Assembly: GCA_028709215.1 (NCBI GenBank)
Contig: JAQVXI010000003.1
Coordinates: 16,949 to 80,948 of the forward strand
Length of the DNA stretch: 64,000 nucleotides
Reading direction: 5' to 3'
DNA from: Bacteroidales bacterium
Lineage (GTDB): Bacteria; Bacteroidota; Bacteroidia; Bacteroidales; UBA1402
Part shown: piece after piece, positions 2,583 through 60,378 of the stretch
Position numbering within the stretch: position 1 is the first letter of the stretch
Layout: every line of letters starts with the position of its first letter
Made by a program: the position numbers and the translations under genes
The notes under the pieces: model-generated
What the model was told of the DNA's origin: nothing
The model's input: the letters and a program-made list of their open reading frames with translations, nothing else
The model's database searches: none

Positions 2583-4496
2583 CTACCATTGTGGATTTTG
2601 TAACAACTTGGGATTAATTTTAATTTGATCCGAAGGGATAGGCTGTAAATAGTTTTTCATCGAGAATTTTCTATTGGAAGCCTGCTCTGTGATTAATGCT
2701 CCCGCCTTAGTAGCAACGATTCCTGAATAAGAGGAAATCGGGACATCCGTTTGGGTGATTGTTGCTGAACTGTAAGAAGAGGCATTGTATACCGGGCTGC
2801 TCGTGTTCGGATTAACAAAGGTCTTATATTCCGTTGGAGTACCCAAATAATCAATATACAAACCACATACCGGTTTGTTACCCAGCTCTTCATCGGCAAT
2901 ACCCCAACGACACAAATCGCTGATCCGATGTCCTTCACCATGCAATTCCAATGCGCGTTCACGTCGAATCTCTCCAAGCAGTGTTAAATCAGCATACGGA
3001 GCAATCAATGCATTGGTTAATCGGGCAACACCGGCACGAGTACGTACATGGTTGATGGAATAATCCAAATCTACATCTGAAATAACTCCACTGCCCAATT
3101 CACAGACCGCTTCCGCGTAAATCAAGTAAATCTCAGCCAAACGAATGTGCATATAATCCGCAGATTCTTCGTTATCACTTCGTTGGTTGCTTTCTGTTCC
3201 AAATTTACGACTGGTATAGCCTCCATTTCCGGTTAAGTTTGGATAATATTGATACGTCGCACCCGCAAGTGAAGTTATATCCGTTGAGTAATTTGCACCC
3301 GTGTTGTATTTGAGATAGCCCCAATACCAATTTCCGGGCTTATGAACCAATGCAGTTAAGCGATGATCTCGATTTTCAAATTCTGAAGTCATGGTCGAAT
3401 ACCCTTGAAACTGAGATGAGTGCTGAATAGGAAGCCCATCGGTACACAGATACATATCCATCAGTTTTCGAGTCACACCAGCCGGTTTGGTATGCGTCAG
3501 GTTGGTACCCCCTTTTCTATAAGTATAATCGTAGACGCTTCTAAAGATGGCTTCGTGGTTACTCGACTTGGTTAGCCCGTTCGGATTGGATTGAGCATCT
3601 TCCAAATTAAACAAATAAAAGCAACTTGTATTCTTATACATCGCTTTATTGGCTACAGCATCGCTGCTCACTTCATCAACGCCGTTCCAAAGTGAGAATT
3701 GTGCGTCATCAATAATCTCCTTTGCAAGATTTTTGGCCATCGTCAAATATTCGTTCGCTTTAAGGGCATCATATCTGGCTGTTCCTGCACCGATTGTTGT
3801 TCCATCACCATCGGTCGACGTACCGTTGTACTTTTCCCAAGTCCCTTCGTACAAACACACACGTGCTTTGAAGGCTTTAGCAGCCTCTAAGGTGACTTTT
3901 CCATTATTACCGGTTGAAGCTTTCGTCACATTTGCCCGGTCCAACTTTGCTATGGCGCTATCCAAATCAAGAACAATTTGTTCGACGACTTGATAGCGAG
4001 AAGCACGAGGGCCCCAAACAACATCCGAATTGGTTTGGGTGACCGTGTTGGCAATTGGAACACCACCAAAACGTTTCAACAGAAAGAAATGCTGCCAAGC
4101 ACGAAAGAACAAAGCCTGTCCGGTAGGTCCTTCAATACTGGCTTTGTCTTCAAAAACCTCGGCCTTTGACAAATAGACATTAATATGCCTCAACCAACTG
4201 TAGGCCTGATTCCAATAGGCATCGGCAGAAGGAACCGTGTTGATCCCACTTCCCAACGCGTCTTGAATGGAGTTGATGTCTGAACCATAATCAAAACTGA
4301 TGGGATAGGTTGTATTCCCATTCCAGGCATACACACAGGTATGTAGATAGTCTGCATTCGCCTGAAATTGCGACGCATTTTTAAAATAGGTAGATTCACT
4401 CAAATAGGCCTCCGGTGTTTTATCCAGGAATCCTTCCTGGCAGCTGTACAAGGACGCAGCGACAAGTACGACCGAATATATTTTTTTTAACTTCAT
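2583..4496 (-). CDS. SusD/RagB-family outer-membrane glycan-binding lipoprotein (third pair)
   Basis: This 637-residue protein has a lipoprotein signal ending in SLYSC with the lipid cysteine at about residue 19, followed by the acidic start of mature SusD proteins (QEGFLDKTPEAYLSESTYF). The C-terminal third contains the family signature ADYMHIRLAEIYLIYAEAV and ends with the usual LQPIPSDQIKINP..QNPQW segment. SusD proteins sit as a lid on the SusC transporter at the cell surface and bind the glycan before import. It follows its SusC partner after 27 bases and is the last gene of the 30-kb minus-strand run. At 637 residues it is larger than most SusD proteins, which suggests extra surface loops. 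The glycan bound is unknown. Confidence 0.96.
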   Translation of the reverse strand: MKLKKIYSVVLVAASLYSCQEGFLDKTPEAYLSESTYFKNASQFQANADYLHTCVYAWNGNTTYPISFDYGSDINSIQDALGSGINTVPSADAYWNQAYSWLRHINVYLSKAEVFEDKASIEGPTGQALFFRAWQHFFLLKRFGGVPIANTVTQTNSDVVWGPRASRYQVVEQIVLDLDSAIAKLDRANVTKASTGNNGKVTLEAAKAFKARVCLYEGTWEKYNGTSTDGDGTTIGAGTARYDALKANEYLTMAKNLAKEIIDDAQFSLWNGVDEVSSDAVANKAMYKNTSCFYLFNLEDAQSNPNGLTKSSNHEAIFRSVYDYTYRKGGTNLTHTKPAGVTRKLMDMYLCTDGLPIQHSSQFQGYSTMTSEFENRDHRLTALVHKPGNWYWGYLKYNTGANYSTDITSLAGATYQYYPNLTGNGGYTSRKFGTESNQRSDNEESADYMHIRLAEIYLIYAEAVCELGSGVISDVDLDYSINHVRTRAGVARLTNALIAPYADLTLLGEIRRERALELHGEGHRISDLCRWGIADEELGNKPVCGLYIDYLGTPTEYKTFVNPNTSSPVYNASSYSSATITQTDVPISSYSGIVATKAGALITEQASNRKFSMKNYLQPIPSDQIKINPKLLQNPQW

Positions 4497-4523
4497 AGTT
4501 GTAAGATTTTAAGTGGAATGAAT

Positions 4524-7500
4524 TTAGAAACGAACATCTACGCCCAAGGATACCGTGCGTGCAAAAACATCAACATTGCCTTGACCAGTTTTTGTGTTGC
4601 TTTCCGGATCAAATCCGTCTTTGACATTGTGAAACTCAAACAAGTTGTCACCGGACATCCAAACACGTGCATTAGAGATACCGATTTTATTGATCAGCGT
4701 TGTAGGCAACGTATATCCCAACACAATATTTTTCATTCGCAAATAGGATACATTGGTCACATTGAGATCATTAACCCAGGCATAGTTCCAATTGTTTCGC
4801 TGTCCATTTCGTGTCATAACAGGATAGGCAGCATTGGGATTTTCGACCGTCCAGGTGTTTCCCAAAAATGTGCGGTTTTGATTGGTCCAACCCCAGCGGA
4901 ATGGAGCAGACATTTGGTCAGTACGTACGATATTTTGCTGTCCCACACCCTGAAGGAAGAACGTTAGATCGAAACTTTTATACGATGCTCCTACGTTAAA
5001 TCCCATCGTATAATGCGGATTGGCATCTCCAAGATAGTCCAAATCATCCGTTGTGATTTTTCCGTCCTGACTCAAATCGACTTTTCTAACACAACCGGGA
5101 ATCAAGCGATTGACCGTTCCACTGGGAGGGATGATGGATCCTGCTCCTCCGACGGCGGTATAATAATCGGTCACCTCTTGTTCGTTTTGAAGATATCCAT
5201 CCGTACGATACACATAAATCGAATTGATGGGCTTGCCTTCGATGATTGCATTCACTCCCGGATTATAGACGGTTTTTCCAGGATAACTGGTCACTTCCGT
5301 TCGTGCATCCGAAAGAGAGGCTCCCACGTAATAGGATAGATCGGAGGTGATTTTATCCCTCCAATTCAGCTCAAGTTCAAAACCTTTTGCGGTAAAGTTA
5401 CCGTCGTTCGTTTGAGGAGCGGTTGCACCAAGCACCGATGGATATACGACATTAATGAGCATTCCTTTGTTCTGACGAACGAAGTAATCAAAAGCGCCGG
5501 ACAAGCGATTGTTCAAAAAAGCATAATCGACACCAAAGTTGCTGGTTGCAACTCGTTCCCATGTGCGATCCCGGCTGGTCATTGCAGCAACGTACGCAGT
5601 CGAGGACTGAGCCGGCGAACTTCCAAAAACGGTTGTTCCCAACGTGATGTTAGAGATATAATCGTAGTTACCGATACCGGACAAAGAACCGGTTTCTCCA
5701 TAAGAGGCACGAATCTTTAAATTATCAAAGACATTCCAATTGTTTATCAGATCAAACTGAGTCAACCGAACGCCTGCTGAGAATCCAACAAAGTCCGCCC
5801 ATCTGTTTTCAGGAGCTAGCTTGGATGAACCATCACGACGATAGATGGCTTCTAACAAATAGGTTTCGTTGTAATCGTAATTCAATTTTGCCAAATAGGA
5901 AATCATACTCCAAGACCAAGCGTTCCCGGAGTTGTCATCATAGGCAGCATCACCGGTATTGATTGCATTCAGATGATCATCAAGCATGTACGAACGTTTG
6001 CCATACAGATCATGAAAATTCTCTTCTTCAGCCGTAACACCTCCCAATAAAGCCAATGTATTCAGACCCATTTTTCTGTTGTAGTTTGCAAACAAACCAT
6101 AGGTAGAATATACGTTGTTTGCGTAAGTGTAAGCTACGGATGTTCCACTCAAAGGTGTTTGGTAAAAAATATTATTGGGTTTCTGTGTTTCTCCGTCCCA
6201 ATCATACATGGTTATTGTAGTGGCACGAACCATCCGATAGCCATCGCGTTCCTTGACGTTGGCATTTGCTGTAATGGTGAGTCCTTTTAAGGCGTCAACC
6301 ATTCCCATGTCAAGGGTCACTTTACCACCCAGTCGAAATAAGCGCTCTGTATTATCCGTTCGACCGCCTTCTTTCATCTTAGCCAAAAGGTTGTTGGATC
6401 CAAAAGCATCATAAAACTGCCCCTTCTCGTTGTACATTGGAAAGATGAAAAAATCCTGAATGCCATGCCCCACCCCATTGGTTGGAGTGCTGACTAAACG
6501 CTTATCGTACGAAAGATTTAACTCCGCTTTGATCCATTTGTTTACATCGTAGTCCACATTGGTTCGAAAGTTCATTTTTTCCGTTCCGTCGTATACAAAT
6601 TTGACCAAAGATCGATCCTTGGCAAATCCGATGGAAGATAACACGCGAACCTTATCCGATCCTCCGGAAACAGTGACGTTGTGATCCTGCCCCCATGTGT
6701 TGCCATATACAAAATCAAACTGATTGGAGTACTCATCACGAGGATCCAGATATAACTTACCATCTTCTCTCCAGGTAGGCAAACCTTGTGCCAACGTATT
6801 GTACACATCTCCTGTAAACAGCCACCAGTTATTGAGCGAACCGGACGCAACGGCATCGTTTTTATTGGCCTCTACGTTCATTTGTGCCCACTCCTGACCG
6901 GAAGCAACCGGAAAACGATTGCCCACAATATTCTGATGCACACTACCGGTGTAACTTACCTGGACTTTTTCTGCTTTTCCCCGTTTTGTTGTGACCAAAA
7001 TAACCCCACCGGCAGCACGAGTTCCATAAATGGAGGCTGCTGCGTCTTTCAAAACAGATACGTTATCAATATCTTTGGGATTAATTTGAGACAACTCCCA
7101 CTGATAGGCTTCGATTCCATCAATAATAATCATTGGATTCACAGCATTGACCGATACGCCGCCGCGTAAGGTAATCGACGTGTTTTCATTGCCGGGACGC
7201 GAGGACGTACGTGTAATGGTCAAGCCGGGGATCGTCCCTTGCAAAGCGGTAGCCACGTTGGTAGACGCTTTGCCTCTCAGTACATTATCTCCACGTACTT
7301 GTGCCACCGCGCCTGTCACCGTTGTCTTCTTTTGTGTGCCGTAGCCCACAACGACAACTTCATCCAACAATTCAACGTCTTCCAGCAATTGAATTTCAAG
7401 AAAACTTCGATTTCCGACCGAAACCTCTTGCGTGATGTAACCCAGATACGAGACAAGCAAAACCTGAGTAGGCCTGGCTTGAATACTAAAAGCTCCCGCC

Positions 7501-7697
7501 AAATTGGTTACAGTACCGGTAGAGGTACCCTTGACTTGGATACTGGCACCAATAATCGGTTCACCCGAGGTATCGACGACTTTACCGGAAAGGGTAGCCT
7601 GTGCAAAAGAATGCAACGAAACCACCATAAACAACAACATCAAAGAGCTCCTGAAGACATTGACTCTTTGATGAAAAGAACCCAACAGTTTTTTCAT
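4524..7697 (-). CDS. SusC/RagA-family TonB-dependent transporter (third pair)
   Basis: The 1057-residue protein has a signal peptide (about 1-32), a carboxypeptidase-regulatory-like domain (about 35-110, GKVVDTSGEPIIGASIQVKG), the SusC-typical box DEVVVVGYGTQKK, a plug domain (about 125-245, containing the motif IDNVSVLKDAAASIYGTRAAGG) and a 22-strand barrel ending in a terminal phenylalanine, as needed for outer-membrane insertion. It imports oligosaccharides with energy from TonB. It precedes its SusD partner. It starts 71 bases after the GH28-like gene on the same strand. That gap holds a GTATATATAC palindrome but no clear TAnnTTTG promoter, so read-through from the upstream genes is likely. 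Confidence 0.97.
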   Translation of the reverse strand: MKKLLGSFHQRVNVFRSSLMLLFMVVSLHSFAQATLSGKVVDTSGEPIIGASIQVKGTSTGTVTNLAGAFSIQARPTQVLLVSYLGYITQEVSVGNRSFLEIQLLEDVELLDEVVVVGYGTQKKTTVTGAVAQVRGDNVLRGKASTNVATALQGTIPGLTITRTSSRPGNENTSITLRGGVSVNAVNPMIIIDGIEAYQWELSQINPKDIDNVSVLKDAAASIYGTRAAGGVILVTTKRGKAEKVQVSYTGSVHQNIVGNRFPVASGQEWAQMNVEANKNDAVASGSLNNWWLFTGDVYNTLAQGLPTWREDGKLYLDPRDEYSNQFDFVYGNTWGQDHNVTVSGGSDKVRVLSSIGFAKDRSLVKFVYDGTEKMNFRTNVDYDVNKWIKAELNLSYDKRLVSTPTNGVGHGIQDFFIFPMYNEKGQFYDAFGSNNLLAKMKEGGRTDNTERLFRLGGKVTLDMGMVDALKGLTITANANVKERDGYRMVRATTITMYDWDGETQKPNNIFYQTPLSGTSVAYTYANNVYSTYGLFANYNRKMGLNTLALLGGVTAEEENFHDLYGKRSYMLDDHLNAINTGDAAYDDNSGNAWSWSMISYLAKLNYDYNETYLLEAIYRRDGSSKLAPENRWADFVGFSAGVRLTQFDLINNWNVFDNLKIRASYGETGSLSGIGNYDYISNITLGTTVFGSSPAQSSTAYVAAMTSRDRTWERVATSNFGVDYAFLNNRLSGAFDYFVRQNKGMLINVVYPSVLGATAPQTNDGNFTAKGFELELNWRDKITSDLSYYVGASLSDARTEVTSYPGKTVYNPGVNAIIEGKPINSIYVYRTDGYLQNEQEVTDYYTAVGGAGSIIPPSGTVNRLIPGCVRKVDLSQDGKITTDDLDYLGDANPHYTMGFNVGASYKSFDLTFFLQGVGQQNIVRTDQMSAPFRWGWTNQNRTFLGNTWTVENPNAAYPVMTRNGQRNNWNYAWVNDLNVTNVSYLRMKNIVLGYTLPTTLINKIGISNARVWMSGDNLFEFHNVKDGFDPESNTKTGQGNVDVFARTVSLGVDVRF

Positions 7698-9199: not shown

Positions 9200-10508
9200 A
9201 TCTAATTTCTGAGGTGGATTCAATCACACAATCGACTGCTTGGGCACCCATAACAACGGGCATCGTGGTCTCGTTGATCAGGTGCAACTTCGTACAGGCA
9301 GCTTCTCCATAGGGAGACATGGATTCACCGTGTTCCGGATGCGTATAGCCGATTAAAATGGGAAGACTTTGCGTTCTATTTTTTTGTTCAAAAGCGTTCA
9401 AAACAACGCGGTTGTTGTGCCCTTGTACGGTCATCAACGAATGCACCAGACGATCCGATTCGCTGGCCACCAAACTCAATTCGACTTCAACATTGCTTCC
9501 TTCCAAAAACAACAACGGACCATAATTGGCATCACCTTTACAGTTGATCATCACGGCACCGTCGTTGACCCAATAGGCGCGTTCGGTACCAATGGTTGTA
9601 CAGTTTTCCAATCGTACTCCCCCCTTGGTGCGCAACTCAAAACCGCCTCGGGTATTCTTTGCCGTACAGTTTAGGAACGTGATGTTTTTATTGTCTGAAT
9701 TATACGTACGAAAACCGTCTTCACACAACGACTTCATGTAACCGGGTGTCACGACGTACCGACCTTCCCGATTGGGAGTCCAGGTTCGAAATTGCACATC
9801 AAAGGCAGGTCCCTGTTCCTCTTTTAGAATGGCATCCGTCGATCGCAGCTCACCTTCTACGTAACAATCTTCAAACGTAACATTGCTTGCGCTTTTTTGA
9901 ATAAAAAAACCATGTCCAAACGAACGCATAAACAACTTGACATTTTTGACCGTTGTTTCATCTCCATTGACCAGAAAGCCACTGTGTTTCTGATGGCGAA
10001 TGACATCCGGACCACCTTTGCCAAATAGATCCCCGTACCCATACGGGAAAGAGCCTTGAACGTGCAACGTAAAATCAGAGATCGTGTTGCCTTTTCCTTC
10101 CACACAAAAGGCAGCCCCACCGGGAGAGGTTTCCTGACCGATGTGCACAATCGTCAAACCCTTGATCACATTGGAATCGCCCAAAACACGAATTTCATTG
10201 GTATGAATCGGGTGTTTCAGCAATTTACGCAGTCTGGTGTCCACTTCCAAGGTTACTCCCTCTAAGTCGATCTCGTTGTTGCTTCCTCTAAAGTATACAT
10301 AGGAATAATCCTTGCGCTCCAATTTGTGTGCAATCGAATCCTCATTTAAATAATCAATCAAACGATACGTTCCAGGCAATAACTTAATTGCATTGCCGCT
10401 TTGATTGGCATAGTAATCCAATTCGGCCAAGGTAGAAACTTCCTTCACAGCGCTTGAACAAGCAAACAGAAGGAATGCTGTCATTGAAATCAAAAGTATT
10501 TTTTTCAT
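9192..10508 (-). CDS. Right-handed beta-helix lipoprotein, polysaccharide-lyase-like
   Basis: The start is the ATG ending at 10508 (MKKILLISMTAFLLFACSS), which gives a lipoprotein signal with the cysteine at about residue 17; the frame extends 32 residues further upstream but into the neighbouring gene. The 438-residue product consists of repeated short beta-strands typical of a parallel beta-helix (many N..I.N/V.G turns such as GNTISDFTLHVQG and NITFLNCTAKN). The opening LAELDYYANQSGNAIKLLPGTYRL resembles the start of PL6-type and related helix proteins. I cannot assign catalytic residues with confidence. It lies between two GH28-like paralogues, so it probably acts on or binds the same polysaccharide. 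The lack of acidic residues after the cysteine hints at a periplasmic rather than surface location. Confidence 0.75.
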   Translation of the reverse strand: MKKILLISMTAFLLFACSSAVKEVSTLAELDYYANQSGNAIKLLPGTYRLIDYLNEDSIAHKLERKDYSYVYFRGSNNEIDLEGVTLEVDTRLRKLLKHPIHTNEIRVLGDSNVIKGLTIVHIGQETSPGGAAFCVEGKGNTISDFTLHVQGSFPYGYGDLFGKGGPDVIRHQKHSGFLVNGDETTVKNVKLFMRSFGHGFFIQKSASNVTFEDCYVEGELRSTDAILKEEQGPAFDVQFRTWTPNREGRYVVTPGYMKSLCEDGFRTYNSDNKNITFLNCTAKNTRGGFELRTKGGVRLENCTTIGTERAYWVNDGAVMINCKGDANYGPLLFLEGSNVEVELSLVASESDRLVHSLMTVQGHNNRVVLNAFEQKNRTQSLPILIGYTHPEHGESMSPYGEAACTKLHLINETTMPVVMGAQAVDCVIESTSEIRYE

Positions 10509-10527
10509 CGTCTTTGGGTATTCGAAA

Positions 10528-11922
10528 TTATTTAAATTGGATTCCATGTACAAAGTCACCCACTTGGATGTTTGCATCCTTGGCCGATCGAACGGTTTTC
10601 CCATTGATCGTCACGTCATCAAATTGGATGTTCTCAATCTTTCGATCCGCGTCAAAACCGTGCAGCACCGAAGGATTGGCAGAATGGCCCGTATACCGGA
10701 TGTTCTTGAACCGTACGTTTTGAATGCCACGCCCCGGAGCATTGCTGTACTTTTTGTCTTCCAACACACGGAGGTTAAATAGTTGCCCCTCCTGGAAATC
10801 TTCTACACGTATGTCTTCAAACGTAACATTGCGTACCAAGTTGTGATCGCTCGGACAAATGGACATACATCCCTGACTGATGCGATCATCCTCGTCGTGT
10901 TCCAAAATATCGATATTGGTGAAAAGCAGATGCTGAATGGTGTCTCCGCCGCCGACAGCATCCCCATGCAAACCGATGTTGATCGGGTGTGCAATGTCTG
11001 CCCAAAGCGTTGAATTTTTCACGATATAATTGCTGGCGTTTCCATAAAACTGCCAACGATGTCCGTAAATGGCAATGCAATCGTCCGAATTTCGCATGAA
11101 TACACCATCAATCAGCACATCGGAACACGACATCAGGTCGATGCCGTCACTCCATCCCTGATTGCTAAACGACTTGATGTTTCGTATGCTTAAGTTGGTG
11201 GTTTCACCCCCATAGATGGTGTAATGTTTGGGATTTATAAAAATGGGACCGTCTATCCGTACGTTGTTGGAATGACGCACTTCCACGCCTCTTTCCGGTT
11301 GAAAGACAATGCCATGGCCAATAATGTTCACATCATGGGCTGAATCAACCATCAATTTGGCCTTGATTACGGCACCGCCGTGTATAAAGGCTGTTTTTCC
11401 GGATGGAATGCGAAACACATCGCCCGGTTGATCGTCCGGCTTGTGTACTCCCGGACCAAAATAAATCACATTGGGATCCTCGGGATCCGGTTCATCAGAC
11501 ATGATTTCATTGGCAAAAATGTGAAGATTTTGCAGCCGGTCTCCATTTACCTCAAAAGATAATTTGCGCGGTTGATCCAATGTAAAGGTTGCAACGGAGC
11601 CGTTAACGATCGGAATAATTTGATAAGAAAGTGGACGAACCTGAACGGAATGAACCCATCCGTTATTCTTTTTTACTTGTACTTCGACTTTTCCCGAAAA
11701 GTCAAACGAGACCATTGATGCCGATTGTTTGGTATCCATATCGACTTCTACGTTGTATTCATAGAGATCTTTCCACTCCCCACCGGGAACGCGCACTTTT
11801 ACGGTAAAATCATCGTTGTGCGCCGAATAAAACATTTCTCTCGGCACTTCGTATGTAATCAATTCCTGAGCAGCAGAAACAAAGGATATAAACGTGAGAA
11901 ACAAACTGATTTTATATTTCAT
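10528..11922 (-). CDS. Secreted right-handed beta-helix glycoside hydrolase, GH28/GH49-like (copy 2)
   Basis: This 464-residue protein has a signal peptide (about 1-18), an N-terminal beta-sandwich containing EVNGDRLQNLHIFAN and a parallel beta-helix. The catalytic candidates are Asp in WSDGIDL (about residue 258) and the Asp pair in NSDDCIAIYGHR (about 281). The layout matches copy 1 at 7769-9199, and many blocks are shared (DDFTVKVR, RPLSY, NVIYFGPG, IPSGKT, NSTLWADIAHP), so the two are paralogues. The helix turns differ enough that they may cut different linkages or work as an endo/exo pair. It starts three bases after the stop of the lyase/GH43 gene, inside the same operon. Confidence 0.87.
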   Translation of the reverse strand: MKYKISLFLTFISFVSAAQELITYEVPREMFYSAHNDDFTVKVRVPGGEWKDLYEYNVEVDMDTKQSASMVSFDFSGKVEVQVKKNNGWVHSVQVRPLSYQIIPIVNGSVATFTLDQPRKLSFEVNGDRLQNLHIFANEIMSDEPDPEDPNVIYFGPGVHKPDDQPGDVFRIPSGKTAFIHGGAVIKAKLMVDSAHDVNIIGHGIVFQPERGVEVRHSNNVRIDGPIFINPKHYTIYGGETTNLSIRNIKSFSNQGWSDGIDLMSCSDVLIDGVFMRNSDDCIAIYGHRWQFYGNASNYIVKNSTLWADIAHPINIGLHGDAVGGGDTIQHLLFTNIDILEHDEDDRISQGCMSICPSDHNLVRNVTFEDIRVEDFQEGQLFNLRVLEDKKYSNAPGRGIQNVRFKNIRYTGHSANPSVLHGFDADRKIENIQFDDVTINGKTVRSAKDANIQVGDFVHGIQFK

Positions 11923-11925
11923 GGC

Positions 11926-14811
11926 TTATGGAGTTATCGGTAAAATGTGTCCTTCTTGATCAAAATCCAATGGGGCAAGACAGAGCTGCCTAAGCACGTA
12001 ACTTTCTTCTTGAGGAAAGATGCGATGATAAAGCATGTAATGCTGATTTTTGTGCATGAACACGCAATGATGCCCGGGACCATAGGTCGTACGATCGGAA
12101 GATGTTTGAAGTATTGGATTGTTCTTGCCTTTCTCGAAGGGTCCAAAGGGGCTTTTGGCGGTTGCGTAACGAACATTGTACGTATGGTCTATGGCTTTAC
12201 CGTTGGAATACATTAGGTAATACGTCCCATCCTTTTTTAACATCACCGGTCCTTCAAAATAATCCGGAGGTGTGACATCCAAGGGCTCTATCAAAAAATC
12301 GATCATATTGGTATCCAACGATACCATGAAACATTTTCCGTTTACCCAATTCAAGCCGGATCCCCAATATAGGTAGGCCTGGTTGTCGTCATCAATAAAG
12401 CATTCCGCATCAATCATGTGGTAACCCGGAATAAGATTGCCCGGAATCAGTGGTGTATTGTCTGATTTTGCATTTTTCCATGGACCAAGCGGATGCTCCG
12501 CGACTCCGGCCCAAACTTCGTTTCCAACGGAAACGTACATATAAAATTGGCCATTCACTCCTTGTATCACGGAGGGAGCCCATACTTTATCCTTACCGGA
12601 GGTAGGGCTGGTACAAGCCTCTTTGGTCGGCCAATTGATTTGCCTTCGTTCAAACGATTGAAAATCACGGGTTTCAAAAACGGCCAATTCTTCTCCTCCC
12701 CACGGGTCAATGGTTGCATAGATGTAATACACGCCCGCATAAAAAACAATGGATGGATCGGCATAATAACCCTCCAAAATGGGGTTGGATCGTTGTATAC
12801 CCAAATCGTTATGAATAGAGACATGGTCAAAGGTAGCCTCAACGGGTTTGTTGGAATCGCTGGACGCCACAACCAAACCGGCTAGGATAGACGACTCCAT
12901 GGGGATCTCAACACGGTCCACTTCAAACCACTTTTGACCGTTTGAAGATTCAAAAACAGTAAAAACAGCGCCAGTACGCTTGATTCGAAACCAAGCGGGT
13001 AGCCATGTATAGGTGTTGCCCAAGGTGGACGACATCGAAACACCGTTTTCAAGCCTGTAGCCCATGCGGGCAAATCGCCCTCCGACCTCTCCCAACGTCA
13101 TGCTCACAGCAGGTGAACCGGGATCCAGTGAGGAGCGCAACATAATACCAACCTTCGAGAGCGGTCCGGAAACATCGCTGATTCGACCCGTGATCTCAAA
13201 ATCGCCACTCGCTTGAGTAAAGCAGAACGAAGCATTGTCTTTGTTTCCACCAATCTGCGTTCCATTACCGGTAACATGATACGTTGAGCCGGCGACATCC
13301 GCAAACGCAGCCTTTCCGGCGTTTCCGGATCCAATCTGCGCCATGTTCCAACCCATCGGCAATGCAGTTGTACGTTTAGGCGTGGCCTGAGTCACCTCAG
13401 AAAAAACGCCGGCACCGGATTGGTTTTGTGCAGCAACCCGATAATAATAGGTTGTGCCATTCGAAGCTGTTTTATCCGTGTATTCTGCAAGGGTCAGATC
13501 ATCCCAGGAAGCGAGGGTTGTAAAGTCTCCTTCTTTACGAATGGATCGCTGAATGATATACCCGGTAGTGGTATAATCGACGGGAGGCTGCCAGCTCAAA
13601 AAAACACGTCCTACACCGGCAGTCGCTTTCAGTGTTTTGGGCTGACCGGGGGTCGGGTGTGGGGGCACGCTGCTCGCTTCTAAGGCAAAGGTGAGCGACC
13701 CGTAACCAAAATGATCTTTGCTTCCACGTTCCGGCCGAATGAGTTCAGCCATACGTTGTACATTGGGTGCCTTTTCCCCCATGCGTACGACGTAATGGTT
13801 GTACAACAGTTCCCAAACCGGACGGTCGTCCAACCGACCTCGCCCGTTGATGGCGGGCCATTTGTGATTGGCAGGCTGACAGTTGTTGTAAAATTCAAAG
13901 GGAACATCCTGCATCATATTGTATTTTGCGGTATATTCCGCTCCGGCAAGGAGGCGATTGTTGTCGTAACCAAACAGATCCACGCCCTGATTCCAGGCTA
14001 TTTGACACGCTGTACCCAAGAGTCCAACGCCCAATTGACCGTGTTCCTGATCGCGGCCGCTTTCTTGCCACTGACCCAGATTCCCATCGTGTACATGATA
14101 CACGGCGTGTTTGATACTCCCTGTACCTTTGCCATGCTTAAAGTATTCGACTCCCTCATCAAAGATGGCTTGGTTGTCGCACAAAACCCCAATGGCAAGC
14201 AAGGCGGTGATGTTGTTTGCATCCCAATTCGCCCAATAATAATCCACACAGGCACCGTTGTGATGGACCAAAAAATCGTGACATACCGGATAAAAATATT
14301 CCACCATCATGTGCTGAAACGCACGAAAATCGTTGGTTTTCCAACCGTCGTAGATCCGCATAATTTCAGCAGCCATTGCCATCTCTGAGATACCGATTCC
14401 ACCCAAGCCGACGATATCCGTATTCCCTTTTGACGGGATTCGATGAACAACAGACGAATAGTCATTAAGAATCCGTATGGCACACTGAGCGTGACGATCA
14501 TCACCGGAGATGTACCAACGGATTGCATTCAAATAAGCCGCATGGGCATCTCTCGACAGTACCTGTCGAGCATTCATATCTTCCTTGGGAGAGGCCTTGT
14601 AATCGCTTTGAGCCAAAGGATCCCTGATCAACAGATTCCAACCGTCAATCCACGGCTGTGCAGCTTCGGCAACTTTGGTCTTCATCCGATCCAAATCTGC
14701 TTGCGTGTGCAAACCTCCCGGGTGAATAAAATTGCCCGATGTTTTTGCTTGCAGCGTAACGCAAAACAAAAGCAGAATTATACCAATGGAAAGACCCTTC
14801 TTAGGCATCAT
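11926..14811 (-). CDS. Four-domain enzyme: alginate-lyase-like, FN3, jelly-roll and GH43
   Basis: I choose the ATG ending at 14811 (MMPKKGLSIG) because the frame from 14847 would run into the upstream gene. The 961-residue product has a signal peptide, then an alpha/alpha-toroid alginate-lyase-like domain (about 25-380, with YYWANWDANN and WQESGRDQEHGQLGVG), a fibronectin type III domain (about 385-475), a concanavalin-like jelly-roll (about 490-675, GIMLRSSLDPGSP) and a GH43 five-bladed propeller (about 680-961). The GH43 triad is visible: Asp in YYADPS (about 684), Asp in DAECF (about 801) and Glu in FEGPVML (about 851). It therefore looks bifunctional: a uronate lyase plus an arabinofuranosidase or xylosidase. 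The fold of the first domain is shared by several lyase families, so alginate is not implied as the substrate. It starts 16 bases after the unknown protein's stop. Confidence 0.86.
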   Translation of the reverse strand: MMPKKGLSIGIILLLFCVTLQAKTSGNFIHPGGLHTQADLDRMKTKVAEAAQPWIDGWNLLIRDPLAQSDYKASPKEDMNARQVLSRDAHAAYLNAIRWYISGDDRHAQCAIRILNDYSSVVHRIPSKGNTDIVGLGGIGISEMAMAAEIMRIYDGWKTNDFRAFQHMMVEYFYPVCHDFLVHHNGACVDYYWANWDANNITALLAIGVLCDNQAIFDEGVEYFKHGKGTGSIKHAVYHVHDGNLGQWQESGRDQEHGQLGVGLLGTACQIAWNQGVDLFGYDNNRLLAGAEYTAKYNMMQDVPFEFYNNCQPANHKWPAINGRGRLDDRPVWELLYNHYVVRMGEKAPNVQRMAELIRPERGSKDHFGYGSLTFALEASSVPPHPTPGQPKTLKATAGVGRVFLSWQPPVDYTTTGYIIQRSIRKEGDFTTLASWDDLTLAEYTDKTASNGTTYYYRVAAQNQSGAGVFSEVTQATPKRTTALPMGWNMAQIGSGNAGKAAFADVAGSTYHVTGNGTQIGGNKDNASFCFTQASGDFEITGRISDVSGPLSKVGIMLRSSLDPGSPAVSMTLGEVGGRFARMGYRLENGVSMSSTLGNTYTWLPAWFRIKRTGAVFTVFESSNGQKWFEVDRVEIPMESSILAGLVVASSDSNKPVEATFDHVSIHNDLGIQRSNPILEGYYADPSIVFYAGVYYIYATIDPWGGEELAVFETRDFQSFERRQINWPTKEACTSPTSGKDKVWAPSVIQGVNGQFYMYVSVGNEVWAGVAEHPLGPWKNAKSDNTPLIPGNLIPGYHMIDAECFIDDDNQAYLYWGSGLNWVNGKCFMVSLDTNMIDFLIEPLDVTPPDYFEGPVMLKKDGTYYLMYSNGKAIDHTYNVRYATAKSPFGPFEKGKNNPILQTSSDRTTYGPGHHCVFMHKNQHYMLYHRIFPQEESYVLRQLCLAPLDFDQEGHILPITP

Positions 14812-14827: not shown

Positions 14828-17092
14828 TTAATCTGTTTCAAGAACAATTACAATGGTGGACATGGGGAGAACCTGTACTTCCTTTGATGAAACCTCGGTT
14901 TCCGAAGGATTACCATTGAGAATGGTATACTCTTTTGTGGGTACAGTCAACGTGTACGTTTGATCACTTGAATGGTTCATACCAATGAGATACCTTCCGT
15001 AACGCATTTCATAAAACAATGCCTTTCCGGCAAAAATATTCTCATCACCTTGTTTGTACCGTACACCATCCGGTATGCGAGCAATGGGAAGCACTTCACC
15101 TGCATGCGCCGATTGAATCCCCTTATACCATTCACGACTGCCATTAAAGCCCAAATTCACCCAATTTGGACGTGTATATCTCATCCCGCTGTCGTCTATA
15201 ATCGTACGAATACATACGTTGGAAACATGTTCTGTCTGAGGAGTAATAAAATGCACCTTAGCCAGATTATTCACGGCATTACGGGCACGCCAATAAAGCG
15301 ACGCATACAGAATCTCATCGCCGTTTTTAATCGCTACAACTCCATTCTCTTCATCAGAAAAGACCACATCCGGTCCGTCTAAAGTCATAGGCATACGAAA
15401 CGTACGAACCGGTTGCTTCATGATCCGATCGTACTCATCGGGAATATGAATCAACGAACGTGTACCTCTCATTCCTCCAACCGTCAATTTCTCCCGAATC
15501 ATTGGAAAAAATTGTTCCTCACGAATCATTTGTTGTACCATCCCGACTGCACGAGGATCTAAGGTATTCGCGGCCGTCATCAATGGAGTCGCATCCCATG
15601 CAGTACCGCGATCACAATAGGCAACATCACCTGGATAGTGGCCACCATCCCGCCAACCCACAACGGCTTCAATTCGCATGACTGCATTCCCTTCGTGATC
15701 AACACCCGGATGTCTAAAATAACTTCGTGCCTCCATCATCTTCAATAATTGCTCCCGAATCTGTAGGTCACCACTGTTGGGAATTCCTGTTACGCAGGTT
15801 GAACGATAAATATCGTTGACCCAATCAAGCACTTCACCGTAGTAGCCTACATAACCAAGTTCTTTAGTCAATCCTTTGGCTGTTAATTGCCAATAATCCG
15901 TACCCAATGGAAATGCATCAAGAATGCCCGACCAAGGGGCCAATCCTACACTTTCATGCAAGTATCGAAGCATCGTATATTCCGGATAGGCTTTTGTCGG
16001 CTCCAAGAGCATCACCGCTTTATTGACATCATACATAAACAAATCAATAATCATGCTTTGATTGGTATACTGTCTGCGATGGTGTATGCTATAATCCAAA
16101 CCTGCCTGCAACAGATCCGTCCATTTGTTTATTCGTTCCTCAGTCAACTGATCGCCCCATTTATCCCATAATAGCCGAATGGCACGTGCTATGGGCCCCA
16201 CCTGCAACCAATCCGTATTGTAGACCGTATTATCCTGATAAATAAACGTGGGATTATCAACAAAACGCTCATAATAAGCATCTATTGAAGCGGCGATGAG
16301 AGGAACTACCTGATCGTTTTCAAACGCATTCGTCCAACTGACGGTGGATGCTTCAGCAAGCGTCCACATCTCCAACTGCGATAAAACATCTTTGTTGAGT
16401 AAAACACTCATATCTCGATTAACACGCGATTTGAGGGCTACAAACGAATCTTCCGTCGTTGCAGCGCGAACTTTATACACCGGTGTTTTGCCCTGTACTT
16501 CCTTTCTACCAGGAGCCAAGTAGGATTCAATATGTGTATACGCTTTATAAAAGCCTATGGTCGGTTTCGTCATGGGCTGCTGGTAACGTTCAAACGTTGA
16601 TCCATATCCCCACATGGGGCCATACGAACGCAATTCCAATTGAACGACCGATTTGCCTTTTGTATACTTCAATGGCAAGGGCAAGGTCACATAATAAAAA
16701 CGGCCCAAAAGGGGTGCATTCCCGTTTCCCAACGTTACATAATCAATATCACCTAAATGTCGATACCCGACCTGCATCCCTTCAATGAAAAGCATGGTTA
16801 GATTCTTGTCCGACTCAGAACCGAAACAACGTACCGTGAAATAATTCTGATGAATTGGATCCACTTTCATCCGAAAGGACATCGTTCCTCCCTCCCAATG
16901 ATCTTCCACAGGCGGCAGCATGCGACGCGCCGTTGATTGCATTCCACCAATATACGATTCGGTACGTACACCAACAAAATCGTGTCTGCTTTCACTTTTT
17001 GTGGAGCCAAAGACCAGTTCATCCCGGACATTTTGTCCATGAAGACTCGTCACAATAAGGACGGAGAGAAAAGATATCAACAATTTTTTCAT
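14828..17092 (-). CDS. Large secreted protein of unknown family, lyase-like architecture
   Basis: I do not recognise a named family. The 754-residue protein has a clear signal peptide (about 1-20, ending in SLHGQ), an N-terminal region rich in beta-strands (about 40-190, GTMSFRMKVD to QLELRSYGPMWGYG), a long helical middle (about 225-560) and a C-terminal beta-sandwich (about 570-754) ending in VLPMSTIVIVLE. Helical toroid followed by beta-sandwich is the layout of several polysaccharide lyase families. Conserved-looking polar clusters that could be catalytic are HHRRQYTNQSM, GWRDGGHYPGD and DRGTAWDATPLM in the helical part. It sits between SusD and the lyase/GH43 gene with 17-base or shorter gaps, so a role in depolymerising the same glycan is likely but unproved. 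A non-enzymatic binding role is possible. Confidence 0.6.
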   Translation of the reverse strand: MKKLLISFLSVLIVTSLHGQNVRDELVFGSTKSESRHDFVGVRTESYIGGMQSTARRMLPPVEDHWEGGTMSFRMKVDPIHQNYFTVRCFGSESDKNLTMLFIEGMQVGYRHLGDIDYVTLGNGNAPLLGRFYYVTLPLPLKYTKGKSVVQLELRSYGPMWGYGSTFERYQQPMTKPTIGFYKAYTHIESYLAPGRKEVQGKTPVYKVRAATTEDSFVALKSRVNRDMSVLLNKDVLSQLEMWTLAEASTVSWTNAFENDQVVPLIAASIDAYYERFVDNPTFIYQDNTVYNTDWLQVGPIARAIRLLWDKWGDQLTEERINKWTDLLQAGLDYSIHHRRQYTNQSMIIDLFMYDVNKAVMLLEPTKAYPEYTMLRYLHESVGLAPWSGILDAFPLGTDYWQLTAKGLTKELGYVGYYGEVLDWVNDIYRSTCVTGIPNSGDLQIREQLLKMMEARSYFRHPGVDHEGNAVMRIEAVVGWRDGGHYPGDVAYCDRGTAWDATPLMTAANTLDPRAVGMVQQMIREEQFFPMIREKLTVGGMRGTRSLIHIPDEYDRIMKQPVRTFRMPMTLDGPDVVFSDEENGVVAIKNGDEILYASLYWRARNAVNNLAKVHFITPQTEHVSNVCIRTIIDDSGMRYTRPNWVNLGFNGSREWYKGIQSAHAGEVLPIARIPDGVRYKQGDENIFAGKALFYEMRYGRYLIGMNHSSDQTYTLTVPTKEYTILNGNPSETEVSSKEVQVLPMSTIVIVLETD

Positions 17093-21700: not shown

Positions 21701-21916
21701 CGTCAACACCGATCGTTCTTCAAACCAAACAGAGGCACCCAGCACCCCTTTGCCGGTTGCGGCATGGATGACAACGCCAGTTACCTGTACGTCGTCCTGA
21801 TTTTCTACCCGTGTTGTGTCTACGTAAGTATCCTTTTGGGACGCATCCTGCGCCCAAACGCTTGAACCCATACGTAGCACAATGGATAATGCGACTATTT
21901 TTGCTATCTTATTCAT
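18758..21916 (-). CDS. SusC-family TonB-dependent transporter, divergent (second pair)
   Basis: The 1052-residue protein has a signal peptide (about 1-23), a carboxypeptidase-regulatory-like domain (about 45-120, GVVIHAATGKGVLGASVWF), a plug domain (about 145-250, with DVNDIESVEIIRDARSLYGSKGANG) and a barrel. Three features set it apart from its neighbours: the usual VVVGYG box between the first two domains is replaced by a charged segment, the plug has VVDEV instead of the common VIDGV, and the barrel ends in leucine rather than phenylalanine. It still looks intact and functional. Its ATG overlaps the stop of the FAS1 lipoprotein gene in ATGAATAA, which suggests equal production of transporter and FAS1 partner. 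Confidence 0.93.
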   Translation of the reverse strand: MNKIAKIVALSIVLRMGSSVWAQDASQKDTYVDTTRVENQDDVQVTGVVIHAATGKGVLGASVWFEERSVLTDEQGSFSLSVPMGIRTSLRVSMDGFVDRMVEIHTKRLREPLEIRLFEDFFVSIRERNDLFKRSDALVLDDEIGLRMSGSVRSIRRSATSAVGSNMFIRGYQSLNANAQPLLVVDEVIWDQPAGKYSIHDGIQLSALTSLDVNDIESVEIIRDARSLYGSKGANGVLSIKTNRGREKATKIDFDMVLGMSQQPRIPSVLDAEDYRIYISELLKGSPEASALSSEFEGYLDLDPNGVDYKRYHNNTDWNELVFQNGNTQRYGLRVQGGDDMARYAISVGYTQATGTVVGTDFSRLNARINSDIDLLDRVRVASDIYFTQVERELRDDGVNERTSPSYIAQIKSPFLLGYAYTTDGKGLTNNLEIVDDFGVSNPLYLQEYARGQHNQYRFGIGVTPEWDFHPNWTLSSRFSFYIDNLKEHYFSPMDGVSPVYIEGKGTSYNTVKDQTALQSSLFNDTYVSFEKQFDRLHSLQGSMGFRVFANRYDYSVGIGHNTGGNNLFNLTTGLDFIETDGALEKWNTASLYGQVTYVYDRWVNLWSALTTDASSRFGEASSGSVSLLGGNWGFFPSVGLMLDLKQSLPQLTQEVELLRFRSSVGLSGNDDLSGIARYGYLSPVTYLGNAIGKEVGNLANQRLKWETTSKWNSGVDVGFWDGRMVLQVDVYKHVTRDLLTFQRAPLLSGLDRYLTNAGSLSNKGYEFGLQLIAYNGERFKWNAGLNVGHYKNEILELPNGDYVTEAYDAELLTAVGQPASVFYGYKTKGVFASSEEAEAAGLVKQNLNGTYSRFAAGDVHFVDQGDGKTSLDGETVIDENDRTIIGNPNPDVYGTLSNTFQLGAWSMEILCTYSLGNDVYNYQRRTLESMSALHNQTAAVNNRWRYEGQVTDVPRAVYGDPLGNSRFSDRWIEDGSYMKLKNIRLHYQLPITASFLQGASVWAACSDIYTWSRYLGSDPETSVSGSVIYQGIDNGLLSAGRSFSLGVKLNL

Positions 21917-25168: not shown

Positions 25169-25177
25169 ATATTTGTA

Positions 25178-28474: not shown

Positions 28475-28486
28475 TTGCTACCTGTA

Positions 28487-31024: not shown

Positions 31025-31036
31025 CGTTCTATCGTA

Positions 31037-33007: not shown

Positions 33008-33091
33008 ACCAAATAAGAATGAGTTTGGGCATTTGCTAACTTAAATACGAATCTGCACAAAAAAATCCTACCCTCAAAAGTTTATAAACAC

Positions 33092-33114
33092 AAAAAAAGG
33101 AGGCCGAAGCCTCC
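33092..33114 (-). terminator. Intrinsic terminator with UUCG loop after the discoidin-repeat gene
   Basis: On the minus strand the sequence reads GGAGGC-TTCG-GCCTCC followed by seven T residues. This is a 6-bp GC-rich stem closed by the very stable UUCG tetraloop, then a U-tract, located 22 bases after the stop of the 33136-36975 gene. It separates that gene from the PUL run. Confidence 0.92.
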
Positions 33115-33135
33115 TCTTAACTGGATTAGACCGTT

Positions 33136-53297: not shown

Positions 53298-54503
53298 TCA
53301 TTGAATCGCATTTCGATAACGCAATAAAGCTTCTATGTAATAATAATCCGCGTAAATGATGGACGCATCCACTTCTGACGCTCCGGGTTTATGACCGGTC
53401 GAATGTTTTAAAAACGATGTATTCTCCGTACCACTTTGATAGGGTCCCCTGCTCAGTGAACGCAGCATGCGCTCTGCAGCCTCAAAATACGCTTTAGCCT
53501 GCTTTTGTTCGGGAACAAGCTTAGACAATTCAATCAAAGCAGAAGCTGTTATGGCGGCAGCAGACGCATCTCTGGGAGCCTGAGGAATCAACGGATCGTC
53601 AAAATCCCAATAAGGCACGTAATCTTCAGGCAATCGATCCAGATAAGCTTTTGCTACTTTTTGTACAAAATCCAGATATTTCGGATCCTGGGTTTCACGG
53701 TACATAACCGTATACCCGTAAATAGCCCAAGCCTGACCCCTAGCCCACATACTGTTATCCGAATACCCCTGATGCGTAACGCCTTTGATAAACCGACCGT
53801 TGGACGTATCGTACACAGCAACATGGTAACAAGTGTGATCCGGTCGAAAATGGTATTGCATGGTTTTATCGGCATGATTTTTGGCAATTTCAATCAAGTT
53901 CGGATCCCCTCCGTGATTGGCGGCCCAAAACATCATTTCCAGATTGATCATATTGTCAATAATCGTATTGTGAGGCCACCCGTTGTTGGCCACTTCACGA
54001 GGCCAGGACAACATCGTACCAACAACCGGATTATACAAATCCATCAAAAGATGTGCCGACTTTATAATCACCTCTTTGTAAGCCGGATCCTGGGTCAAAC
54101 GAAACCCATTTCCAAAACTACAAAACATAAGAAATCCCAGGTCGTGATCATAAACGGGCCCATCCGCAATAGAAGCCAGGCTATTTGTGTAATTACGGGC
54201 TTGTTCAAGAATTGCACTGTCTTGTGCATACTCATAGGTATACCACAAAACACCAGGCCAAAAACCGGCACACCATTCCTCAATCGCAACGGGACGGAGA
54301 TTCCAATGTTGCTCTCCGCTTAAGATATTACGGGGAACCCTTGTATAATCGTACGGTTTTAATTGATTCAAACTCCGTCCGACCTGCGTCACACAATAAT
54401 CCAATGACTTATCGACGTCAAAAGCAGGTGATTTCTGGCAACTCAACAGCAAACAAACTCCCAATATGCCAATACAGCATTGCTTCCACTTATTTTTATT
54501 CAT
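53298..54503 (-). CDS. GH88 unsaturated glucuronyl hydrolase (lipoprotein)
   Basis: The 401-residue protein has a lipoprotein signal ending in LLLSC (cysteine at 22). The alpha/alpha-barrel contains the two key aspartates of GH88 in the expected contexts, Asp121 in YDHDLGF and Asp183 in IIDNMINLEMMFWA, plus GYSDNSMWARGQAWAIYGY. GH88 enzymes remove the unsaturated uronic acid that polysaccharide lyases leave at the non-reducing end. This links it logically to the lyase-like enzymes of the large PUL. GH105 is a related alternative, but the sequence context favours GH88. It has its own terminator and no recognised promoter in the 128-base gap upstream. Confidence 0.93.
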   Translation of the reverse strand: MNKNKWKQCCIGILGVCLLLSCQKSPAFDVDKSLDYCVTQVGRSLNQLKPYDYTRVPRNILSGEQHWNLRPVAIEEWCAGFWPGVLWYTYEYAQDSAILEQARNYTNSLASIADGPVYDHDLGFLMFCSFGNGFRLTQDPAYKEVIIKSAHLLMDLYNPVVGTMLSWPREVANNGWPHNTIIDNMINLEMMFWAANHGGDPNLIEIAKNHADKTMQYHFRPDHTCYHVAVYDTSNGRFIKGVTHQGYSDNSMWARGQAWAIYGYTVMYRETQDPKYLDFVQKVAKAYLDRLPEDYVPYWDFDDPLIPQAPRDASAAAITASALIELSKLVPEQKQAKAYFEAAERMLRSLSRGPYQSGTENTSFLKHSTGHKPGASEVDASIIYADYYYIEALLRYRNAIQ

Positions 54504-58500: not shown

Positions 58501-60192
58501 TTAATCGACTACAAACCAATCCACATCCGCCCATCCTTTTTCCTTACCGGAAATCGATTTGGGTGGGGCAATACAATACAAACCCATTTTTGCGCCAACC
58601 CAACGACCTTTAGACACACGACACACCCTACCGATGGGTGAAAACACGACGTTATCTAAACTGTATGAAAACTGGCAAAGACCGCCGGCCATAAACACAA
58701 CCCGGAGATAGACTTCTTTCTCGAATGCCAACGAAGGAATCTCAAAGCGAGCATCCGGTTGCAAGGGTACCGAAGCGTGTATTACTTCCTGCGTTCCCTC
58801 CATGGCTTGTTGACACGATACGTGTTCCAGCCAAAAAAGTCCCGCTTTAAATTTCAATGAAAGGGCTGCGTAATCGTTACCAAACACAACCAGACCGACA
58901 CGATCTTCACCCTCGCGCGAGCGGAGTTTGACGGCAGTGGTAGCCGTAAACGAATCCGTTGGTATCTTTTGCAACAAGAGGTTGGGTACATCCCACAAAT
59001 TCACGTGATTGGGTGACCAATATTCGGCATACAATCGCAGGTAGCCATTCGACGAAGGAAAGGCCCAACCAACCCTTGGATTGGCATTCCAGGACCATTG
59101 TAAACCCAATTCGGGCGAATCAAATCCATCGCTTTCAACCGGCGTTTCGATGGAATAGACAGCACCAACATCAGGCTTCTTGTGTTGTCGAACCGGCCAA
59201 CCGCAGCCATCACCATCCGAATCAATCCCCATCACCGGCCAACCATCGATCCATTCCACCGGATTGAGATGCAACACCCTTCCCAGATATTCCTTATCTT
59301 GAAAGTGCAAGAACCAGGATTGACCGGCAAGCGTTTCTACCCAAGCTCCCTGGTGTGGCCCATTTATGTCTGTTTCACCCTGAGCAAGTACGGTCTTCAC
59401 CGCATAAGGGCCATAGATGTGCTTTGATCGTGCTACAATCTGCCAACCATATTCTACGCCACCTGCCGGAGCAAACACATAATAGAACCCATCACGTTTG
59501 TACAGCTTTGTTCCTTCCAGCGTATGGTTGCCCTCAACATTTCCATCAACAATCAACACCTCCGGTCCGATTGGATACGCAGCGGTTGCATCCATTTCCT
59601 GAATCACCGCAATACTGTTTATACCGCTTCTGCTGCCAGCAAACGCATGAGACATATATACTTTTCCATCGTCATCCCACAAAATACTCGGATCAATCAA
59701 ACCCTTACCAGCCTTGACCAACTCGGGGCTGGTCCATGGACCAGCCGGATCCGTGGCAGTGACACGAAAAATACCAAAATCTGGATCCCCCCAATAAATA
59801 TAATAGACCGAATTGTGATACTTGATGTTGGGAGCCCAAACCCCACAACCGTGTCTGGGAACAGCATAATGATCCTTTGGCAAGAGTTCCTGAACCCCGT
59901 GACCAATCAGTTTCCAATTGACCAAATCCGTTGAATGCAATATGGGCAAACCCGGAACACTAGTAAAACTGGATGCTGTCATGTAATAATCCCCCCCGTT
60001 CTGACACACGTCCGGATCGGAATAATCGGCATCCAAAATTGGATTTATGTAGGTTCCGTCGCCTTGATCTGACACCCAAACACTTGAAACATAGGCGGTA
60101 TCCACCCCGTCATGCAAACGTTGATTTCCATTTATATTCTTTCCGCAGGCACACAGCAAACAGGCAGAAAATACGACTAGCACATACTTCAT
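58501..60192 (-). CDS. GH43-family lipoprotein (xylosidase/arabinofuranosidase)
   Basis: I prefer the ATG ending at 60192 (MKYVLVVFSACLLCACG), which gives a lipoprotein signal; a start nine codons earlier at 60219 is possible. The N-terminal propeller shows the three GH43 residues: Asp in YSDPDV (about 57), Asp in GLIDPSILWDDDG (about 166) and Glu in LEGTKLYKRDGFYYVF (about 225). A C-terminal beta-sandwich (about 345-563) completes the layout of the two-domain GH43 group that removes xylose or arabinose from oligosaccharides. It heads the hydrolase-transporter-kinase set. I found no convincing promoter in the gap to 60379. Confidence 0.93.
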   Translation of the reverse strand: MKYVLVVFSACLLCACGKNINGNQRLHDGVDTAYVSSVWVSDQGDGTYINPILDADYSDPDVCQNGGDYYMTASSFTSVPGLPILHSTDLVNWKLIGHGVQELLPKDHYAVPRHGCGVWAPNIKYHNSVYYIYWGDPDFGIFRVTATDPAGPWTSPELVKAGKGLIDPSILWDDDGKVYMSHAFAGSRSGINSIAVIQEMDATAAYPIGPEVLIVDGNVEGNHTLEGTKLYKRDGFYYVFAPAGGVEYGWQIVARSKHIYGPYAVKTVLAQGETDINGPHQGAWVETLAGQSWFLHFQDKEYLGRVLHLNPVEWIDGWPVMGIDSDGDGCGWPVRQHKKPDVGAVYSIETPVESDGFDSPELGLQWSWNANPRVGWAFPSSNGYLRLYAEYWSPNHVNLWDVPNLLLQKIPTDSFTATTAVKLRSREGEDRVGLVVFGNDYAALSLKFKAGLFWLEHVSCQQAMEGTQEVIHASVPLQPDARFEIPSLAFEKEVYLRVVFMAGGLCQFSYSLDNVVFSPIGRVCRVSKGRWVGAKMGLYCIAPPKSISGKEKGWADVDWFVVD

Positions 60193-60378
60193 ACGCTCAA
60201 TATCTTGGTTTCTATTCATTTTTTAATACGTTTCAATCGTCCAAATCACCCATTAATGCTAAAATTTAAAGGTGTTTTCTCAAAACATGTTAAATCGACT
60301 TCGTTTCAATTAAACAAACTGACCCAAAACCAATCTATCTAGTAAAGGAGTTAATTAAACCACTTAAAACCTTGCATT

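Follow-up and report, generated by a model that had tools for sequence, protein, structure and literature searches.

A reading frame joining a lyase-like domain to a GH43 domain in a polysaccharide utilisation locus of a Bacteroidales bacterium

The described enzymes closest in fold to the first catalytic-type domain of the protein analysed here are lyases of families PL5, PL17 and PL38. The PL17 enzymes carry a C-terminal beta-sheet domain. For PL5, PMC8829089 holds Tyr246 to be both acid and base, with His192 steadying the intermediate and Arg239 neutralising the carboxylate. For PL38, abstraction of the proton is ascribed to Tyr298 together with His243 in PMC13169297. According to PMC12088678, the alginate lyases of families PL5, PL15, PL17, PL38 and PL39 all conserve the His, and the paper gives Asn at the same position in several GAG lyases. 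With regard to GH43, PMC8939339 lists BT_3662 and BT_3675 as GH43_34 alpha-L-arabinofuranosidases, and places beta-D-galactofuranosidases in GH43_34 as well.

The DNA analysed here (the window) is a stretch of 64,000 nucleotides from a Bacteroidales genome. Positions 14811-11926 of its minus strand form a single open reading frame of 961 residues, with an ATG at 14811, a stop at 11926 and zero internal stops. The features of this gene are as follows.

14746..14811, minus strand: signal peptide, residues 1-22, with no lipobox Cys (read by eye from the sequence)
13657..14748, minus strand: PF05426 (alpha/alpha) toroid, lyase-like domain, residues 22-385 (Pfam, AF2, PDB folds)
14224..14229, minus strand: N195-W196, aligned with PL5 N191-H192 and PL38 N242-H243 (alignment, conservation)
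14041..14055, minus strand: R253...H257, aligned with PL5 R239...Y246 (alignment, conservation)
13366..13656, minus strand: FN3, about residues 386-482 (Pfam below threshold, AF2, fold alignment)
12802..13365, minus strand: DUF1349-like concanavalin-type jelly roll, about residues 483-670 (Pfam below threshold, AF2, folds)
12787..12807, minus strand: fusion junction, residues 669-675 (comparison with the Sunxiuqinia split genes)
11926..12801, minus strand: GH43 domain, residues 671-961 and stop codon, with D685, D801 and E853 (Pfam, PDB relatives, alignment)

The open reading frame listing also holds an upstream start, a TTG at 14847, which would overlap the preceding gene (14828..17092). The signal peptide is followed in order by PF05426 (residues 67-297, E 2.2e-15), fn3 (residues 391-476, E 9.3e-5, 23.0 bits, slightly below the cut-off of 25), the DUF1349-like jelly roll (residues 521-667, E 3.1e-7, 30.7 bits against a cut-off of 32.4) and PF04616 GH43 (residues 675-955, E 4.2e-45, 154.8 bits against a cut-off of 32.2). 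A sequence-only reading of this DNA had described a four-domain fusion at 11926-14811; its coordinates are right, and all four domains were found, by Pfam and, for the FN3 and jelly roll, by AF2. It had also called the chain secreted, which is borne out as far as the signal peptide read by eye; a Pfam scan found no T9SS tail on the window protein, and one was present in two of six relatives scanned (L010, L016). Along positions 11929-14748, G+C is lower in the GH43 part (0.449, third positions 0.454) than in the lyase part (0.495 and 0.519), a gap that is compatible with separate histories.

The AF2 model of residues 22-385 (pLDDT 88.4, pTM 0.91) is a toroid that matches A1-III of PL5 (Z 27.7, rmsd 3.3, 317 residues aligned), Alg17C of PL17 (4nei; Z 26.4, 3.0 A, 293 residues) and the PL38 structure 3nnb (Z 23.7, 3.1 A, 307 residues), as well as dermatan sulfate epimerase 6hzn (Z 21.0, rmsd 3.7, 307 aligned). 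In sequence the distances are large: identity to PL5 is 10%, and the family profile reached E 0.31 against the PL5 chain 1hv6, below significance, and E 0.58 against PL38. The PF05426 model itself matches PL38-type proteins strongly too. The window domain shares the toroid fold and the active-site Asn and Arg with PL5 (A1-III, AlgL), the fold and the Pfam model with the PL38 alginate/glucuronan lyases (3nnb, BoPL38 8bdq), and the toroid fold with the PL17 oligoalginate lyases. Unlike PL5, the window chain adds FN3, jelly roll and GH43 domains, and unlike PL17 it has an FN3 and a DUF1349-type sandwich behind the toroid in place of the PL17-type C-terminal beta-sheet domain. The family ranges over Bacteroidota, Pseudomonas, Burkholderia, Nonomuraea and Acidobacteria; a literature search found no tested activity for any of its members, which counts against the lyase reading. 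A second, distant lyase-like relative (899 aa, 28% identity) lies at L115 1081-6820 (G000 contig 27) and adjoins an 883-aa protein without a Pfam match.

The active site was mapped in an alignment of 20 family rows with a PL5 sequence (L092, an AlgL), PL38 rows, of which L070 was verified by a PDB search and nine others were assigned only from their motif and PF05426 score, and bridging PF05426 groups. This mapping is sequence-based and is not a structural superposition. The PL5 residues Asn191, His192, Arg239 and Tyr246 correspond in it to Asn195, Trp196, Arg253 and His257, and W196 and H257 likewise stand at the His and Tyr positions of the PL38 pair Asn242-His243 and Tyr298, so that neither the His of the PL38 NNH motif nor Tyr298 is kept. 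An hhalign comparison of A1 with AlgL alone (48% probability) gave another, gapped placement of the first motif, in which the Tyr-Trp of both motifs are paired and N195 is left unpaired with the PL5 Asn. The ungapped helix placement was preferred, since the NNH, NNWH, NNWG, NNWD and GNWD groups align gap-free along the helix. The mapping is further supported by family members with the canonical residues: Tyr occupies the H257 position in L039 and L040, and His the W196 position in L050.

Conservation was counted over 46 domains (one truncated) from 41 of the 47 loci related to the fusion protein that were found in a scan of genome contigs; many rows are close Pseudomonas relatives, and the counts overstate independence. 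R253 is kept in 45 of 46, W196 in 44, H257 in 43 and N195 in 38, with E250 and D254 at 45/46 and D197 and E334 at 44/46. Q247, Q249, E250, R253, D254, H257, N338, H339 and Y340 are all near-invariant (43 to 45 of 46). Because W196 and H257 are near-invariant across the family, the Trp/His exchange is a family trait and not decay in the window gene. N195 is replaced by Ser, His or Arg in five Pseudomonas copies (L034, L038, L039, L040, L050), two of which have Tyr for H257 and one His for W196; they form a natural series of active-site variants.

These data bear on the sequence-only reading in several ways. Its lyase-type fold stands on the matches of the model to PL5, PL17 and PL38, and the backbone cleavage that it attached to the fold is something we infer. 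By homology the domain is matched by PF05426, a model that also matches PL38-type proteins; by residues it is neither PL5 nor PL38, and assignment to either was ruled out by the catalytic residues despite the matching fold. Loss of lyase catalytic residues, named there as evidence that would count against a lyase, was found by half, two of the four PL5 residues being replaced by residues that are themselves conserved. Judging from the aligned position and PMC12088678, a Trp in place of the His would not favour alginate as the substrate.

The replaced residues leave room for other chemistry. The domain may be a uronate-glycan hydrolase or C5-epimerase in which E250, D254, D197 or E334 acts with H257, a reading to which the Trp and His at the H192 and Y246 positions, the near-invariance of these four acidic residues and the shared fold of dermatan sulfate epimerase all lend weight. 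It is nevertheless unlikely, as the neutralising Asn and Arg are mostly kept, the best folds are mostly those of lyases, and the GH88 gene of the Sunxiuqinia cluster (see below) suggests unsaturated products. The same replacement of two canonical catalytic residues could mean that the domain is catalytically dead and serves the GH43 in binding or as a scaffold; this is improbable, given the GH43-free copies in many bacteria with near-invariant residues and the 79% identity to Sunxiuqinia.

The FN3 and DUF1349 domains are confirmed as real by the predicted structure, despite their Pfam scores (AF2 model of residues 386-672, pLDDT 90.4, pTM 0.84). The FN3 part aligns with 3f7q (Z 14.3, 1.8 A over 90 residues). 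The jelly roll is a concanavalin-type sandwich with 3mep and 3o12 at Z 21 (3mep Z 21.0), which we take to be DUF1349-type proteins, and it also resembles the C-terminal domain of GH43 beta-xylosidases (Z 17-19) and CBM66 (Z 16). It shares its fold with the DUF1349 and GH43_C2-type sandwiches, at 10-19% identity, and differs from them in preceding the GH43 domain and not following it.

In the GH43 domain, the three catalytic residues that had been claimed as visible are present in the alignment: D685, D801 and E853 are intact as the Asp base, Asp modulator and Glu acid, and the columns hold D in 18/19, D in 18/19 and E in 19/19 relatives. The best solved matches, over the whole domain, were 5msx (E 6.6e-35) and 3qz4 (E 3.6e-25), presumably BT_3662 and BT_3675; a literature search for 5MSX returned no match. 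The window GH43 has the catalytic Asp/Asp/Glu in common with these structures and differs in being joined behind a lyase-like domain. Arabinose-type side chains would be compatible with these closest structures.

The nearest relative of the fusion protein is that of Sunxiuqinia indica (L009), which is collinear with it along the whole chain and split in two adjacent genes. The first encodes a 673-aa lyase, FN3 and jelly roll protein (10001-12022); the second, which starts after a 32-nt gap, encodes a 325-aa GH43 lipoprotein (12055-13032) with its own signal, which ends in a lipobox-like stretch before Cys22. Identity between the window and Sunxiuqinia is 79% for the lyase, 61% for the FN3-jelly roll and 80% for the GH43 part. 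Relative to Sunxiuqinia, the stop, spacer and second signal are all absent at the window junction and the domain borders are kept. A frameshift or misjoining of two genes, the other ground for doubt raised from the sequence, was rejected: no stop interrupts the frame, the junction is missing all three of stop, spacer and signal, and the separate genes of the relative lie in the same order.

Both halves occur alone. Lyase-FN3-jelly roll proteins without GH43 were found at L010-L016, with L017 cut by the contig start, and stand-alone GH43 relatives of 57-62% identity at L066, L067, L123 and L124 (open frames of 316-396 aa). Other tails in the scanned lyase-family members are ricin-type lectins, Ig-like repeats and T9SS signals. 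A same-genus genome (G001) holds a 45% identical lyase-FN3 stretch that is cut by the contig end and is compatible with either a fused or a split gene. When the best 2 to 8 candidates per genome were scored in three overlapping sets of 98, 394 and 392 other genomes, no match running through residues 1-961 was found outside the fusion's own genome, and a literature search found no lyase-GH43 fusion. Since both halves are found alone in other genomes, the fusion is taken to be the derived state; it is probably derived, in-frame and rare. The sequence-only reading had held that the substrate is one where backbone cuts and side-chain removal must be coordinated, which does not follow: Sunxiuqinia carries the same two activities on separate genes, and covalent coupling is therefore dispensable.

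An error of assembly or base calling, with two genes as in Sunxiuqinia at the true locus, is a very improbable origin for the fusion, even though the fusion is seen in one draft genome of 80 contigs only and relatives are split. Such an error would have had to remove a stop, a spacer and a whole signal peptide in frame, more than one base, with domain borders kept and catalytic domains still 79-80% identical to those of Sunxiuqinia.

The fusion gene belongs to a polysaccharide utilisation locus, which also contains two GH28-type genes, a gene for a beta-helix protein, SusC/SusD pairs and an orphan of 754 aa. Genes noted along the window are these.

14828..17092, minus strand: exported protein of 754 aa that falls in no described family, the preceding gene, on the same strand
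10528..11922, minus strand: GH28-type beta-helix enzyme, 464 aa, the next gene (Pfam, sequence comparison)
2583..7697, minus strand: SusD and SusC pair (637 and 1057 aa)
53298..54503, minus strand: GH88 unsaturated glucuronyl hydrolase, closest solved structure 3wiw
58501..60219, minus strand: second GH43 (with GH43_C2)

The GH28-type gene at 10528..11922 is 70% identical to the gene beside the Sunxiuqinia split orthologue, in the same order, and homologues of the SusC/SusD pair at 2583-7697 lie upstream of the lyase gene in L009, L010, L016 and L044. The window GH88 (3wiw, E 3.2e-80; 1vd5, E 2e-59) is 54% identical to the GH88 of the Sunxiuqinia lyase cluster, and the second GH43 is 50% identical to the GH43 of that cluster. 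The window GH88 lies 40 kb from the fusion gene; both it and the second GH43 are past a block of tryptophan-operon type (chorismate-binding and PLP-dependent genes). In L009 and L014 a GH88 gene adjoins the lyase gene or lies close to it; with a profile of the window GH88, GH88 genes were near 2 of 41 domain-bearing loci only. Co-occurrence with GH88 was accordingly dropped as a general proof, and it speaks for the Sunxiuqinia cluster and the window alone, where it supports a pathway yielding unsaturated uronates. In the one Pseudomonas locus examined (L019), the lyase-like gene adjoins the housekeeping genes SurE and glyS, which counts against the lyase reading.

Neither Pfam nor NCBIfam matched the 754-aa protein, and no PDB match to it was credible; its family profile returned only XRCC4 rows from the PDB, along a coiled-coil stretch at E 0.0004 or worse, and these were judged spurious. 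Its relatives comprise a paralogue in the same genome (32%), a protein in G076 beside an orthologous SusC/SusD pair (55%), one on a Sphingobium plasmid with a GH88 about 5 kb away (34%) and others on Halocatena plasmids near sulfatases and a fucosidase (26%). By its sequence relatives and their neighbours, it is a candidate for an undescribed carbohydrate-active family. Elsewhere in the window (21909-36975, minus strand), three fasciclin-domain proteins (554, 845 and 656 aa) are interleaved with more SusC and SusD genes, and after this array comes a protein of 1279 aa with no clear domain.

We consider it rather probable that the locus holds a real gene fusion whose product is an exported two-enzyme chain, combining the cutting of a uronate glycan with the trimming of its side groups. 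The observations that carry this reading are the single open reading frame, the folds of the first three domains, the GH43 catalytic residues, the collinear split genes and the absence of the second signal. The ancestral operon would have held a gene for an exported PF05426 lyase-like enzyme ending in FN3 and jelly roll, with the GH43 encoded separately behind it. Loss in frame of stop, spacer and second signal in the window lineage would then have left one exported chain. Its lyase-like domain would act by beta-elimination on the glycosidic bond adjacent to a uronate. N195 and R253 would neutralise the carboxylate, H257 would stand in for the usual Tyr as acid/base, and the 4,5-unsaturated uronate formed may be removed by the GH88 encoded at 53298-54503. 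The GH43 domain would strip alpha-L-arabinofuranosyl, beta-D-galactofuranosyl or xylosyl groups off the same glycan, with the FN3 and jelly roll as a spacer and possible binding module. Fusion would thereby have moved the GH43 from a lipid anchor to the soluble export route of the lyase. More tentatively, the lyase-like domain may represent an uncharacterised family that performs its uronate chemistry with Trp and His at positions where PL5 and PL38 lyases have His and Tyr, welded in the window to the GH43 that was its operon partner.

The fusion is rare and made of known kinds of parts, and the altered lyase-like active site is the more interesting part. The split genes of Sunxiuqinia and the fused gene of the window form a natural pair with which to ask whether the fusion of a lyase to a debranching hydrolase alters catalysis or only location. 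Should this widespread family prove to be a lyase, the conserved exchange of Tyr for His and of His for Trp would represent one more way to supply acid and base on the PL5-type fold, and a function would be gained for many proteins that are called alginate lyase by profile without evidence.
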